From contig JAJDVT010000109.1 of assembly GCA_022826005.1 (NCBI GenBank), positions 62,001-126,000 on the forward strand: DNA of 64,000 bases, in the 5' to 3' direction. The notes under the pieces were generated by a model that did not search any database, was not told the origin of the DNA, and saw nothing but the letters and a program-made list of their open reading frames with translations. The DNA is from Gemmatimonadota bacterium. Lineage in GTDB: Bacteria; Gemmatimonadota; Gemmatimonadetes; Longimicrobiales; Gaopeijiaceae. The position numbers were made by a program, and so were the translations under genes. Shown piece after piece: positions 9,001-14,665 of this stretch (position 1 is the first letter of the stretch; each line of letters begins with the position of its first letter).

Positions 9001-10809
9001 GTGCGGACCGACCTGATTCGCAATTTCTGCATCATCGCGCACATCGACCACGGCAAGTCCACCCTGGCCGACCGGCTCCTGGAGTCGACCGCCACCGTGG
9101 ACAGCCGCCGGATGCGCGACCAGGTCCTGGATTCCAACGAGCTCGAGCGGGAGCGCGGCATCACCATCAAGCTCCACGCGGTGCGCATGTCCTACCGCGC
9201 CCGGGACGGCCGGGACTACGACCTGAACCTGATCGATACCCCCGGCCACGTCGACTTCACCTACGAGGTTTCGCGCTCCCTTGCCGCCTGCGAGGGCGCC
9301 ATTCTCGTGGTCGACGCGACGCAGGGGGTTCAGGCCCAGACCCTCTCCAACCTCTTCCTGGCCCTCGACGCCGACCTCGAGATCATCCCCGTGCTGAACA
9401 AGATCGACCTTCCCGGGGCCGAGCCCGAGCGGCGCCGGCAGGAGGTCGCCGAACTGATGGGCATCGATCCGGGGACGGTGCTCGAGGTGAGCGCCAAGGA
9501 GGGGAAGGGAATCGACGAGGTACTGGAAGCGGTGGTTGCCCGTGTCCCGGTCCCCGGGGGCGACGCGTCGGCACCGCTGCGCGCGCTCATCTTCGACTCC
9601 TACTACGACCAGTACCTCGGCGCGGTGCCCTCCATCCGCGTCGTCGACGGAACGCTGGCGCCCGGAATGACGATTGCCTTCGGTGCCGTGGACTCCCGCT
9701 ACGAGGTGACCGAGGTGGGACACATGCGCCTCGGGCGCGTCCCGGCGGCGTCGCTGGGACCCGGGGAGGTGGGGTATCTGGTAGCGGCGATCAAGGCGGT
9801 GTCGGACACCCGCGCGGGCGACACGGTGCTCGACGCCTCCCGGCGCTCCGTCGAGCTGCTGCCGGGGTACAAGGAGGCCAAGCCGATGGTCTTCGCGGGC
9901 CTCTATCCTTCGGACACGGACGGCTACGAGGAGCTGCGCGACGCGCTGCACAGGCTCCGCCTGAACGACGCATCCCTCCACTTCGAACCCGAAACCTCGA
10001 AGGCGCTGGGCTTCGGTTTCCGCTGCGGTTTCCTGGGACTCCTCCACATGGAAGTCGTTCAGGAGCGCCTGGACCGCGAATTCGGGGTCAAGCTCATTAC
10101 CACGGTCCCGAACGTGAAGTACGAGGTGGCGATGTCAGACGGGAGCAGGCTGTGGGTGGAGAACCCGTCCGAGCTTCCCGACCGGGCATTGGTGGACTCG
10201 GTGGCCGAGCCTGTGGTGCGCGCGCACATCGTCGTGCCGGCGGACTACATCGGGAACGTGCAGAAGCTCTGCCACGAGCGCCGGGGCACGTTCCGCGGGA
10301 TGAGCTACCTCGATCCGCGCCGGGTCGAGATGGACTTCGAGCTCCCGCTCGCCGAGATCGTGCTCGACTTCTACAACCGGCTGAAGAGCGGCACCCGCGG
10401 CTATGCGGCCCTGGACTACGAATTCCAGGAGTACCGGCGCGACAATCTGGTCAAGCTTGACGTGATGGTGAACCGGGAACCCGTGGACGCCTTCTCCGTC
10501 ATCCTTCACCGCGACAACGCCTACCACCACGGCCTGGCCCTGGTGCGCAAGCTCAGGCAGCTGATCCCCCGGCAGCAGTTCGACGTCACGCTGCAGGCCG
10601 CGATCGGGGGCCAGATCATCGCGCGCGAGACGGTGAAGGCGGTGCGCAAGAACGTGACCGCGAAGTGCTACGGCGGCGACATCACCCGCAAGCGCAAGCT
10701 TCTCGAGCGCCAGAAGGAGGGGAAGAGGCGGATGAAGCAGGTCGGGTCCGTGGAGATCCCGCAGGAGGCGTTCATGGCGGTCCTGCAGCTCGACGATACG
10801 CGCTCGTGA
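9001..10809 (+). CDS. lepA: Elongation factor 4 (LepA) GTPase
   Basis: LepA is a ribosome-bound translational GTPase that back-translocates or remodels stalled ribosomes. The 602-residue product matches the usual family length. The G1 loop [10 protein letters not shown] lies near the N-terminus, followed by the GITIK switch region, the DTPGHVDF G3 motif and the NKIDL G4 motif; the EF4-specific C-terminal basic segment with [21 protein letters not shown]-type sequence is present. The start is GTG at 9001; no ATG fits ahead of the conserved N-terminus and the Shine-Dalgarno signal is weak. The next gene starts inside its stop codon (GTGA), so the two are likely co-translated. Confidence 0.98.
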
Positions 10810-11828
10810 GGGAGGGGAATCCGCCGGAGACGGATCCGCCCGTGAGGAAGGGGGCGCCGCGCTGGATTGCGGGGGTGGACATCGGCGGGACCAATCTGCG
10901 CGCCGGGATGGTCCCGTACGGGGGGGGTGAGCCCGCCGCGGTGGTGAGCGCACCGACCCGCGCCGGGGAGGGTGCCGAGGAGGTGGTCGCACGGGTGGTC
11001 GAGATGATACGCGCGTCGATGGAGGCCGTGGGGGCGGAGGGGGGAGGGGTGGCGGGCGTCGGCATCGGGGCGCCGGGCCCGCTGGACCGCGAGCGCGGGA
11101 TCGTCACCGAGACGCCGAACCTGGGCTGGCGCGAGGTGCCGTTGCGGGACATGGTCGCTGAACGGATCGCTCTTGCGGTGGCCACCGAGAACGACGCCAA
11201 CTGCGCGGCCTACGGCGAGTGGTGGCTGGGCGCGGGACGCGGGGCGGAGCGGCTGGTCGGACTGACGCTCGGGACCGGGATCGGCGGGGGAATCGTCTTG
11301 GGCGGGGAGATCTACCACGGGGCATCCGGCGCGGCGGGGGAAGCGGGCCACATGTCGGTGCACTTCGCAGGGCGGCGGTGCGCCTGCGGGTCGAACGGCT
11401 GCGTAGAGGCCTACGCATCGGGGCCGGCGATCGCGGCCAGGGCGGTCGAGGGACTCGGAACGGCCGGGGACACCTCACTGGCCACACTCGTGTCGGAGGA
11501 TCCGGCCCTGGTGACCGCCGAGGCGGTCTGCGAGGCCGCCACCGCCGGCGACGGCTATGCCAGGGGAGTCCTGGAGGAGACGGCCCGGATCCTCGCGGTG
11601 GCGGTGGCCAACCTGATCCACCTCTTCAACCCGGACGTGATCGTCATCGGTGGCGGAGTGGCCGCCGCCGGAGACTTGCTCTTCCGCCCTCTCCGCGCCG
11701 AAGTGAGCAGGCGGGCCTTCCGTTCAGCGGCCGGCGCCTGCCGCATCGTACCCGCGGAGCTCCCGGAGACCGCGGGGATGATCGGGGCGGCGGCGGTGCT
11801 GAAGCGCATGTTGCACGGCTCCCTGTGA
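10806..11828 (+). CDS. ROK-family sugar kinase (glucokinase-like)
   Basis: A 340-residue kinase of the ROK family, phosphorylating glucose or a related sugar with ATP. Visible motifs: N-terminal phosphate loop DIGGTN (residues 25-30), catalytic region ENDAN (128-132), the GEAGHM segment with the zinc-ligand histidine (182), and the ROK zinc-binding signature CACGSNGC (192-199). The start taken is a GTG at 10806 overlapping the lepA stop; a second in-frame GTG at 10842 would trim 12 residues. ROK members include glucokinases, fructokinases, N-acetylmannosamine kinases and repressors; there is no HTH here, so an enzyme is favoured. Substrate is unresolved. Confidence 0.88.
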
Positions 11829-11872: not shown

Positions 11873-11903
11873 TTGCCGCGGCCCCCTCGCCCTCCATTAT
11901 CTT
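11873..11903 (+). promoter_or_regulatory. Putative promoter for the STAS-HATPase gene pair
   Basis: TTGCCG at 11873-11878 and TATCTT at 11898-11903, separated by 19 bases, about 55 bases before the ATG at 11957. The TATCTTC element matches the recurrent pattern described in the findings; the spacer is longer than usual, so the -35 assignment is weak. Confidence 0.35.
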
Positions 11904-11956
11904 CACTCCGATGAAGAGAGCACTGCACCTGCGGCCGCGACCACCCGGCTCCTGAC

Positions 11957-12838
11957 ATGCGCGTCATCGAGATACCCCGGTCGCTGGACTACCGCAACGT
12001 CGAGCACATCTACGAACAGGCCGCCGGCGACGATTCCAGCCCGGTGCTCTTCGACGCCCGCCGGCTACGCTGGATCGACCCCAACGGTATGCTGCTCCTT
12101 CTCGCCGCGGGCCAGGTGGCCGCCCGGAGCGGAACAGCCCCGCGGATCTCGCTGCCGGCCCGGCAGGAGGTCACGGGGTATCTCGAACGGATGGGTTTTC
12201 ATCACGCGGCGGCGGGCATCTTCAGGTCCGGTGCGGGGACCAGGCGCCGGTCCCGTTCGGCCTCCGACGTTCTGCTGGAAATCACTCCGGTCACCACGAA
12301 CTCGGATGTGCACGACGTGGTGGACCGGGTCCAGGCACGTGCGGGCGCCATACTCTCCACGGCGCTCCGCTATCCCCGTTCGGCCGTGGTCCAGTTTTCA
12401 GTGATCCTCTCCGAAGTGTGCCAGAACATCGTAGAGCATGCGGAGGCTCCCGGATGGGTCGCGGCTCAGGCCTACAACTGGCAGAAGAGACTTGGGCGCC
12501 ACGTCGCGGTCATTGCCGTCTCGGACCTCGGGTGCGGCTTTCGCGCCTCCCTGGAGGCGGAACATGCCGCCCGGTTCGGCGACCGCTGGGGGGACGCGAC
12601 GGCCCTGGAGGCGGCGTTTCTTCTGGGCCTCACGCGCTTCGCCGACACGGGGAGAGGGCAGGGGATCCAGCAGATACGCAAGCAGGTGGGCCGCTGGCAG
12701 GGCATCCTGTCGATCCGGAGCGGCACCGTCCGGATCGCCGACACTCCCGACTGGAGCAGCCGCCCCCCTCTGGAAGAAGGCCTGACGCACTTCCCGGGCT
12801 CCCAGATCAACATCATCCTCCCTGAACGGACCGGTTGA
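11957..12838 (+). CDS. STAS-like domain fused to a GHKL/HATPase domain
   Basis: A 293-residue protein. Residues 1-90 look like a STAS domain: beta-alpha pattern with IDPNG (40-44) where phosphorylatable STAS proteins carry Asp-x-Ser, so the usual serine is replaced by Asn. Residues about 145-290 form a GHKL ATPase of the anti-sigma/serine-kinase type: N-box SEVCQNIVEHA (E153, N157), G1 box DLGCGF (190-195), G2 box GRGQGI (232-237) and a terminal beta strand INIILPE. No transmembrane segment or histidine-kinase dimerisation helix is seen. The next gene encodes another STAS-like protein, suggesting a partner-switching pair. Function is inferred only; the target is unknown. Confidence 0.75.
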   Translation: MRVIEIPRSLDYRNVEHIYEQAAGDDSSPVLFDARRLRWIDPNGMLLLLAAGQVAARSGTAPRISLPARQEVTGYLERMGFHHAAAGIFRSGAGTRRRSRSASDVLLEITPVTTNSDVHDVVDRVQARAGAILSTALRYPRSAVVQFSVILSEVCQNIVEHAEAPGWVAAQAYNWQKRLGRHVAVIAVSDLGCGFRASLEAEHAARFGDRWGDATALEAAFLLGLTRFADTGRGQGIQQIRKQVGRWQGILSIRSGTVRIADTPDWSSRPPLEEGLTHFPGSQINIILPERTG

Positions 12839-12876
12839 GCAGAGGGCGGATCGGATGACCAAGGGGTCCGGACCGG

Positions 12877-13452
12877 ATGGGTGAATCCCCGACTCCCCTG
12901 TTGACCATTGACGTCGGCGCGATCGTGGGCGACGCGGTTGCTCCGGCGCGCCGCGATCTGGTTACGCGCCCGACGGGGCGGGCCGTCAGGGAAGCGATCG
13001 AAGTGCGGATCGCCCGCACCACCCGCGCTCCGTCCGTCTCGCTGCTGGACTTCAGCCAGGTGAGGATTCTGGACTTCAGCTGCGCGGACGAGGTGATCGC
13101 CAAGCTTCTCGTCCGCTACCTGCGGCGCGACCGCCCCCGCGAAGCCTTCTTCCTCTTTCGCGCAGTGGGCGACAATCACCGCCATGCGGTAGAAGAGGTG
13201 CTGGGCAGGCACGGACTCGCGGCTGTCTGCAATCTTGGCGGAGGGTATGAACTGCTGGGGTCCGCAACCGGGGAGGAACGGACTGCGTGGCGGGCGCTGG
13301 AGCACAAGGGCCGGATCGGACCCGGCGAACTCGCTGCCCGGTTCGGCGAAGATGGGGTGCTGGTGATCCGCGGACTGGCCGACCGGCGCCTGGCCTGGTA
13401 CGGCCGGACGGACGGCGCTTGCGCGCTTAGCACGCTCGCCCGCAATCCCTGA
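12877..13452 (+). CDS. STAS-like (DUF4325-type) protein with C-terminal helical extension
   Basis: A 191-residue soluble protein. Residues about 40-125 resemble a STAS/DUF4325 fold, with the segment VRILDFSCADEVIAKLL (62-78), in which S68 sits where anti-sigma-factor antagonists are phosphorylated. Residues about 133-175 are predicted helical and beta-hairpin-like (ALEHKGRIGPGELAARFG), which could be a small winged-helix module, but this is only pattern-based. It follows the STAS-HATPase gene by 38 bases and probably shares its transcript. The likely role is antagonist or adaptor of that ATPase. I cannot name an exact orthologue. Confidence 0.6.
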   Translation: MGESPTPLLTIDVGAIVGDAVAPARRDLVTRPTGRAVREAIEVRIARTTRAPSVSLLDFSQVRILDFSCADEVIAKLLVRYLRRDRPREAFFLFRAVGDNHRHAVEEVLGRHGLAAVCNLGGGYELLGSATGEERTAWRALEHKGRIGPGELAARFGEDGVLVIRGLADRRLAWYGRTDGACALSTLARNP

Positions 13453-13477: not shown

Positions 13478-14665
13478 ATGAGCGCCCGACCAACCTCGAA
13501 TGGCAGATCCGGAACGGCGACCAGCGCAGTGCACGCCGGGTGTCCCGAGCCCCGTCCCGGCAGCCCGGTGGTGCAGCCAATCGTGCGCAGCTCCACCTTT
13601 CACTGGGCGGGCCCCGGCGATGGCCCGGACCTTCTGTACAGCCGGTACGGCAACAACCCGAACCAGCTCTCGGTCGCCGCCAAGGTCGCCGCGCTGGAGG
13701 GAACGGAGGCCGGCCTGGCGCTCGCCAGCGGAATGGCGGCGATCTCGATGACCATCCTCTCCGCAACCGGCCCCGGCGACCACGTGGTGGCCAGCCGCCA
13801 CCTCTACGGCGCCACCCATGCCCTGCTGTCCGGCGAACTCCCCAGGCGCGGGATCACCACCACCTTCGTCGAGCCATCGGACCCCGAGGCCTGGGAAGCG
13901 GCGCTGGCCCCGCGCACCCGGGTCGTCCTCATCGAGATGCCCACCAACCCCACCCTGCGCGTCTTCGACATCGAACCCGCCCGGCGCGCCGCCCGCTCGG
14001 CCGGCGCCCTCCTCGCGGCCGACATGACCTTCGCCACCCCCGTGAACATCCGCGCGGCGGAGCACGGAGTCGACGCGGTCGTCCACTCGGCCACCAAGTA
14101 CCTCGGCGGCCACTCCGACCTGATCGCGGGGGTGGTCGCGGGCAGCCACGAGCTGATCGCCGGCGTTACAGGGATGATGAAGCTCTACGGGGGCTCCCTC
14201 GATCCGGGCGCGGCCTGGCTCCTCGAGCGCGGCATGCGCACGCTCCCGGCCCGGATGGACCGGCACAACCGCACCGCCCACGCCCTGGCCCGCTGGTTCA
14301 CCGAGGTCGAGGGCATCCGCGCGGTGATCTACCCCGGGCTGGCGAGCCATCCCGACCACGAACGCGCCACCCGCATGCTGAGCGGGTACGGCGGGATGGT
14401 TTCGATCGTCCTGGACGGCGGCGGAGAAGCCGCGGACCGCTTCTGCTCCAGGCTGCGCCTGGCCGTGCCGGCGCCCTCCCTGGGCGGCGTCGAGACGCTG
14501 GTGTCGCAGCCGCGCCACACGTCGCACGTCGATCTCGGCACCGGGGAGCGCGACGCCCTTGGGATACCCGACGGGTTCGTGCGCATTTCGGTCGGCCTGG
14601 AGGACCTGGAAGACCTCAAGGCGGACTTCGCCGCGGCTGCACGGGCGGTGTCGGCCCTCGGCTGA
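13478..14665 (+). CDS. Cys/Met metabolism PLP-dependent enzyme (cystathionine gamma-synthase/methionine gamma-lyase type)
   Basis: A 395-residue fold-type I PLP enzyme. Family landmarks: SRYGNNPN (55-62), SGMAAIS (84-90), the YGATHALL segment contacting the cofactor (110-117), the cofactor-binding Asp in ADMTF (D182), and the PLP lysine in SATKYLGGHSDL (K207). ATG 13478 is preceded by a GGAGG at a good spacing. It acts in trans-sulfuration or methionine breakdown; which reaction (gamma-synthase, beta-lyase or gamma-lyase) cannot be decided from motifs. A second family member lies at 29978-31162. It converges on pruA, 34 bases away. Confidence 0.85.
   Translation: MSARPTSNGRSGTATSAVHAGCPEPRPGSPVVQPIVRSSTFHWAGPGDGPDLLYSRYGNNPNQLSVAAKVAALEGTEAGLALASGMAAISMTILSATGPGDHVVASRHLYGATHALLSGELPRRGITTTFVEPSDPEAWEAALAPRTRVVLIEMPTNPTLRVFDIEPARRAARSAGALLAADMTFATPVNIRAAEHGVDAVVHSATKYLGGHSDLIAGVVAGSHELIAGVTGMMKLYGGSLDPGAAWLLERGMRTLPARMDRHNRTAHALARWFTEVEGIRAVIYPGLASHPDHERATRMLSGYGGMVSIVLDGGGEAADRFCSRLRLAVPAPSLGGVETLVSQPRHTSHVDLGTGERDALGIPDGFVRISVGLEDLEDLKADFAAAARAVSALG

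Follow-up and report, generated by a model that had tools for sequence, protein, structure and literature searches.

A predicted STAS-GHKL kinase and its putative STAS substrate form a widely retained gene pair in Gemmatimonadota with homology to CapK/CapS

Two adjacent genes of a Gemmatimonadota genome probably encode a dedicated kinase-substrate pair that is homologous to the CapK/CapS regulators, with a STAS-GHKL protein (P1) that would phosphorylate a STAS protein with a winged-helix-like tail (P2). Retention of the pair is near-universal among the examined genomes of one class, and it occupies a fixed chromosomal place. Domain make-up, motifs, co-occurrence, adjacency and homology were computed for the pair, and we infer its catalysis, signal and output. 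The window, i.e. the whole stretch of 64,000 nucleotides that was analysed, contains both open reading frames described in the initial annotation, and the features discussed below are as follows (all on the forward strand).

9001..10809, +, lepA, conserved upstream neighbour
10866..11828, +, ROK-family sugar kinase gene, conserved upstream neighbour, start approximate
11957..12838, +, P1, STAS-GHKL protein of 293 aa, predicted serine kinase, CapK-like without the N-terminal HTH
11957..12235, +, P1 STAS domain, residues 1-93, with residue 43 in place of a phosphorylatable Ser
12263..12829, +, P1 GHKL kinase domain, residues 103-291, with SpoIIAB as best structural match
12413..12427, +, P1 N box, E153-V-C-Q-N157
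12524..12538, +, P1 G1 box, D190-L-G-C-G194
12650..12664, +, P1 G2 box, G232-R-G-Q-G236
12877..13452, +, P2, STAS and winged-helix-like protein of 191 aa, predicted P1 substrate, CapS-like
12898..13260, +, P2 STAS domain, residues 8-128, DUF4325-like
13078..13080, +, codon of P2 Ser68, aligned to CapS Ser54
13264..13443, +, P2 winged-helix-like C-terminal domain, residues about 130-189, predicted to have helices 2 and 3 merged and the HTH turn shortened
13478..14665, +, Cys/Met metabolism PLP enzyme gene, conserved downstream neighbour

P1 had been described as a STAS-like domain without the phosphorylatable Ser, joined to a GHKL ATPase of the anti-sigma kinase type, and both parts of this description hold. 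The AlphaFold2 model of P1 is confident (mean pLDDT 84.9); for its kinase domain (residues 103-291) the closest structural match is SpoIIAB, an anti-sigma kinase (1l0o_A, Z 14.1, 135 residues at rmsd 2.9), and residues 1-93 match the STAS protein TM1442 (1vc1_A, Z 10.0, 88 residues at rmsd 2.0). The phospho-Ser position of the STAS fold is taken by I40-D41-P42-N43-G44, where P42 and G44 are invariant among 57 relatives and position 43 is free to vary (N in 32, Y in 13, A in 5, S in 2, others in 5), so that a phosphorylatable residue there is not selected. The GHKL residues E153, N157, D190, G192, G194, R233, G234 and G236 are invariant in 57/57, and 70 of the 189 columns of the kinase domain are conserved at 95% or more. 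Pfam assigns STAS_2, HATPase_c and HATPase_c_2 to P1, all below their cut-offs; in the alignment of P1 relatives (A1), both HATPase_c and HATPase_c_2 are matched by every one of the 40 members, and STAS_2 by 21 of them at E up to 0.1. NCBIfam gave no match for P1 or P2, and neither PDB searches with P1 alone and P2 alone nor a scan of viral contigs with the P1 profile returned a useful match.

The intact Ser that had been noted in the STAS-like domain of P2 is likewise present, within D66-F-S68-C-A-D-E72. D66 and S68-E72 are invariant in 58/58 relatives, and Ser68 also in 6/6 outside sequences. The AlphaFold2 model of P2 is confident too (mean pLDDT 89.4), and its STAS domain matches RsbS with Z about 9 (6jhk_B, rmsd 3.6 over 106) and SpoIIAA with Z 8.5; CapS structures are absent among the structural matches listed (structure library to April 2026), and Foldseek with the same model found nothing at E < 0.001. 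The extra C-terminus of the earlier description is there as well, and the model predicts a winged-helix-like fold for it, residues 129-191 reaching Z 6.3-7.8 against winged-helix proteins, which is middling if taken alone. Conservation at 95% or more is found in 20 of 101 columns of the STAS domain and in 0 of 63 columns of the tail. Plasmids searched with P2 gave no useful match.

Lack of co-occurrence of the two genes in other genomes would have refuted the module according to the initial annotation, and we found the opposite. P1 is present in 192 of 200 Gemmatimonadota genomes (a sample of the phylum with completeness of at least 90%) and P2 accompanies it, none of the 192 being among the P2-less genomes listed. 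At the family level P1 occurs in 113/121 genomes (71/73 of high quality), and a match to the P2 profile was obtained in 372 of 395 genomes, or in 275 of 286 if only those of high quality are counted. P1 is missing from G114, G198, G221, G254 and four genomes of family f11; seven of these eight are listed as P2-less too, and we take the eighth, G127, to be P2-less since it was not seen among the P2 matches listed, with three P2-less genomes unlisted. The pair was not found in families f8 and f11, the latter lying outside the class. A scan of genome contigs with P1 alone gave 36 loci, all from Gemmatimonadota, as was to be expected anyway from a search that retrieves close relatives.

The arrangement of the locus is conserved as well. 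Each of the 66 loci read, among which 58 have distinct proteins, has P2 directly after P1, with an overlap of 4-23 bases between the two genes in 58 of the 66. The proposed comparison of neighbourhoods showed that pair adjacency and the LepA, ROK, PfkB and Cys/Met surroundings are conserved across Gemmatimonadota. Given for two locus sets that share some genomes, the Cys/Met enzyme gene comes after P2 in 27/30 and 29/33 loci (56/63 with enough downstream sequence), a PfkB-type kinase gene lies immediately upstream of P1 in 21/30 and 30/34, and a ROK gene is found upstream of P1 in 22/30 and 28/34, a count in which short loci may miss ROK. The window itself has 128 bases between ROK and P1, too few for a PfkB gene. 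Pairwise identities of P1 track those of LepA with a Spearman coefficient of 0.87 (231 pairs). The corresponding coefficients are 0.85 for the Cys/Met enzyme (153 pairs), 0.69 for P2 (231) and 0.71 for ROK (153), a pattern that argues for vertical inheritance.

The initial annotation could not match the arrangement to a named system; the closest one proved to be CapK/CapS. In the report by Chambers et al., EMBO J 2026 (PMC13373217), CapK (HTH-STAS-GHKL) is activated by ssDNA and phosphorylates Ser54 of CapS (STAS-wHTH), whereby the CapS repressor dimer is broken and the adjacent immune operon opened; mutation of CapK N218 prevents signalling. A literature search that covered few subscription journals and preprints listed, among its matches, none on such a Gemmatimonadota pair beyond PMC13373217.

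With P1 as tblastn query, one protein encoded on a Nostoc plasmid (E 7e-7) and one of a Gordonia phage (E 3e-9) were found. The gene after that of the Nostoc kinase encodes a STAS-wHTH protein, which in turn matched CapS in the PDB (9z72, E 0.0022; 9z71, E 0.034). Further plasmid capK/capS loci were gathered with a piece of CapS as query, including the studied E. roggenkampii pair and a pair from Cytobacillus; L099 and L102 were left out, as they have CapS-like genes without an annotated kinase gene beside them. The P1 profile scored 102 bits on the Nostoc kinase, 86 on that of phage Phishy, 57 on Cytobacillus, 46 on Sphingobium, 32 on E. roggenkampii and 15 on Vibrio, against 6.2 for the best shuffle. 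Scores of the P2 profile were 39.5 bits for Cytobacillus, 33 for Nostoc, 16 for Sphingobium, 7 for E. roggenkampii and 5 for Vibrio (best shuffle 5.5), and the 75-aa protein of Phishy went unreported by it. When the Nostoc protein was combined with 39 P2s in one profile, CapS 9z71 (E 0.0028) was the sole PDB match at E up to 10; without the Nostoc row (A2), the P2 profile found no CapS in the PDB. The direct link of P2 to the two Proteobacterial CapS proteins closest to those studied (E. roggenkampii and Vibrio) is thus weak, both scores being near those of shuffles, and the link via the Nostoc and Cytobacillus intermediates, and via the kinase, is good. Taken together, profiles, the conserved Ser, the catalytic Asn and a single-chain GHKL-STAS protein (see below) support homology of P1/P2 to CapK/CapS.

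Some of these relatives have settings of their own. The pair on Nostoc linckia plasmid AP018224.1 (L095) is unannotated and is followed by an MBL-fold gene (assigned by inspection and unmatched in Pfam) and then a Prok-E2_A gene; the operon is likely of the immune type. The N-terminal HTH is missing from the Cytobacillus kinase too, whose gene lies upstream of a multiubiquitin/ThiF operon. Genes 32-33 of Gordonia phage Phishy (L096:3495-4634) encode a STAS-GHKL protein annotated as histidine kinase and then the 75-aa STAS-like protein, with SFADE; this pair adjoins the integrase region.

The genome of the window offers a second view of the same two domains. A search of it with the P2 profile returned a second site (E 3.9e-6, G000:C81:166793-167056) that lies inside a 415-aa protein (L120:562-1809) composed of GHKL and a C-terminal DUF4325 domain (47.6 bits against a cut-off of 23). 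On this DUF4325 domain the P2 profile scores 23 bits with Ser aligned on Ser (shuffles up to 5.9), and on the GHKL part the P1 profile scores 16.7 bits (shuffles up to 12.0). That one chain combines GHKL with a P2-like STAS domain supports the view that such domains act together. The 415-aa protein also matches the PADLOC DrmA model over positions 108-393.

The GHKL domain of P1, of the SpoIIAB type, would bind ATP and phosphorylate Ser68 of P2, and the P1 STAS domain, without a conserved phosphorylatable residue at that position, probably gates the kinase by sensing or docking. For CapK, binding of the activating ssDNA is proposed to take place in a groove formed between the STAS and GHKL domains, with Trp68 needed for activation (PMC13373217); this carries over to P1 by analogy only. 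CapK Trp68 aligns into an insertion beside P1 Leu10 (L in 39 and F in 18 of 57), and CapK K237 and K239 align with P1 residues that are variable in the 57 relatives. Basic P1 residues near the latter positions are kept (R178, with R in 49 and K in 5; R181, with R in 56 and K in 1 of 57), and Y173 and W175 (50/57) are kept nearby. Phosphorylation of Ser68 would alter self-association or partner binding of P2, comparable to the dimer loss of CapS and to VapS, whose output is a protein partner and whose phosphomimic breaks the VapS-VapC complex (PMC13373217).

A full CapS-like repressor, in which P2 represses its own and other promoters and is released when ssDNA after DNA damage activates P1, seems unlikely to us. 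The order of STAS and winged helix is that of CapS, P2 is homologous to CapS, 12 of 58 relatives have a complete HTH turn and one of 39 P2s matches MarR_2 (E 2.4e-5), all of which would suit a repressor. On the other hand, the equivalent of CapS Asn145 is N in 1 of 58 P2s, that of Lys151 is Lys in none (Arg in 14, the window included) and the Gly169-Gly170 wing is not kept in the 58 relatives; the turn is shortened in 39, and in 7, with one subclade affected, most of the tail is gone. In the model of the window's P2, helices 2 and 3 are fused as a single helix (149-169). DNA binding by P2 is thus doubtful in the window's species, given the loss of the CapS contacts, the shortened turn and the merged helices, and it may persist in lineages with a complete HTH turn. 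Since wing and recognition helix look altered and the tail is mostly gone in one subclade, a protein partner would be at least as likely an output in the window's lineage. A vacant SOS role is not available either, as LexA (PF01726) was found in 120/121 genomes, for which reason P1/P2 as a LexA substitute was rejected.

The repressor reading also finds no operator-like palindrome common to the genus upstream of P1, and a scan for promoters and terminators gave one site, at the junction of P2 and the Cys/Met gene. Several DNA elements were seen as well. Window positions 11900-11956 contain an inverted repeat, TCTTCACTCCGATGAAGA, which is similar but not identical in the species of L002, L003 and L007 and overlaps the ATG of a 14-codon frame ending just before P1; the region is possibly a leader peptide or a promoter. 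A perfect palindrome, GGTCCGGACC, lies at 12865-12874 just before the P2 start codon (seen in the window sequence alone). The GC-rich genomes of the window's genus carry a dispersed AT-rich palindromic element of ~45 bases, roughly GATGTAANGNNNACATTACANNATGTCATGTNNANTATACAT, which is found upstream of P1 in L010, L011, L013, L014 and L015 and elsewhere (G000:C37:23643, C41:4527 and others), with sites near unrelated genes. Its first 19 bases have 109 sites in the window's genome at up to 2 mismatches against 0 for a reversed control. It could be a mobile repeat or the operator of an amplified regulator family, perhaps PadR-like. The GATGTAANGNNNACATTAC element is present in 6/6 genomes of the window's genus, and none of the other 55 genomes of a 61-genome sample has more than one site; the window's own species lacks it upstream of P1. 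P2 as the regulator of this dispersed element is disfavoured, the element being in practice confined to the genus and P2 class-wide.

The initial annotation had suggested a partner-switching module. Of this proposal, the kinase-substrate STAS/GHKL module is well supported (SpoIIAB-like fold, invariant Asn and Ser, strict co-occurrence, single-chain protein), switching of the classical kind much less so. In the latter, P1 would be an anti-sigma factor that keeps hold of a sigma factor as long as P1 is not bound by unphosphorylated P2, and a PP2C phosphatase would reset P2. The SpoIIAB/RsbW-like kinase fold, a STAS substrate with invariant Ser and several sigma-70 paralogs in every genome of the 61-genome sample fit such a scheme. 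However, no PP2C or sigma factor gene lies beside the pair in the loci seen, as had been noted for the window, and the NCBIfam SigBFG cut-off was reached in 0/61 genomes. Furthermore, 11 of 200 genomes have the pair without a PF07228 protein (the only phosphatase family searched) and four f11 genomes have PF07228 without the pair, and a separate REC-PP2C/RsbW/STAS cluster exists in the same genome, so that we consider classical switching by P1/P2 improbable. The only PF07228 protein of the window's genome is a response regulator-PP2C (G000:C10:17025-19628, L067) on another contig than the pair, and its gene is divergent from two others, for an RsbW-like kinase and for a STAS protein, so that the cluster looks like a classical module. 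Very improbable is the reading of P1 as a silent ATP-binding scaffold and P2 as a structural STAS partner that assemble into a complex with the operon products (sugar kinases and Cys/Met enzyme), suggested by the conserved co-location with the ROK, PfkB and Cys/Met genes but opposed by the invariance of the GHKL ATP-binding residues and the Ser; catalytically silent relatives usually lose such residues. An immune-linked regulator was rejected, no immune gene being among the neighbours seen. PADLOC on P1 returned DrmA only (E 4.7e-11), which probably reflects the GHKL/DUF4325 stretch at the N-terminus of the 1750-position model.

The kinase-substrate pair homologous to CapK/CapS remains our preferred reading. 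Its wider meaning lies in the contrast to what is known of CapK/CapS, described in 2026 as an accessory regulator beside immune operons (PMC13373217), since a homologous pair in nearly all examined genomes of a class, without an immune operon, suggests that the same kinase-substrate chemistry serves core physiology as well. As a speculation that we put forward tentatively, the pair might be a housekeeping stress switch of Gemmatimonadota and belong to the stock from which the mobile immune-operon regulators CapK/CapS and VapK/VapS arose; the core kinase might sense a cell-wide signal, possibly ssDNA or another polyanion bound between STAS and GHKL, and phosphorylation of P2 Ser68 might set free a target on the chromosome through protein-protein contact, the winged helix having by then given up its role in DNA binding. 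P1 and P2 offer a system for seeking signal and output outside immunity, and the comparison provides a testable name for two core genes without NCBIfam match in a poorly studied phylum.

Among known families and systems, DUF4325 (PF14213) shares the S-x-x-D-E motif with P2, and its model is touched weakly by 5 of 39 P2s (best E 0.0032), but the window's P2 has no Pfam match and the curated cut-off is not reached. SpoIIAB/SpoIIAA and RsbW/RsbV resemble the pair in the kinase fold and the fold of the STAS substrate, but P1 carries a STAS domain of its own, P2 an extra domain, and neither adjoins a sigma factor or PP2C gene. VapK/VapS/VapC, compared by the description in PMC13373217, shares with the pair a STAS-GHKL kinase that lacks an HTH, along with a STAS protein whose Ser/Thr is conserved; it differs from the pair in that no PIN-domain nuclease gene lies beside P2, the next gene in the window being that of the Cys/Met enzyme, and in that the P2 tail is longer and winged-helix-like. 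From CapK/CapS, the pair is set apart by P1 beginning at the STAS domain without the N-terminal HTH of CapK, by the altered or reduced winged helix of P2, by flanks with LepA, ROK, PfkB and Cys/Met enzyme genes instead of an immune operon (within the loci fetched), and by a core, seemingly vertically inherited status as opposed to an accessory one. Yet in both the gene of a STAS-GHKL kinase is followed by that of a STAS-wHTH protein, P1 N157 (57/57) corresponds to CapK N218 and P2 S68 (58/58) to CapS S54, and profile homology is clearest with the plasmid pairs of Cytobacillus and Nostoc.
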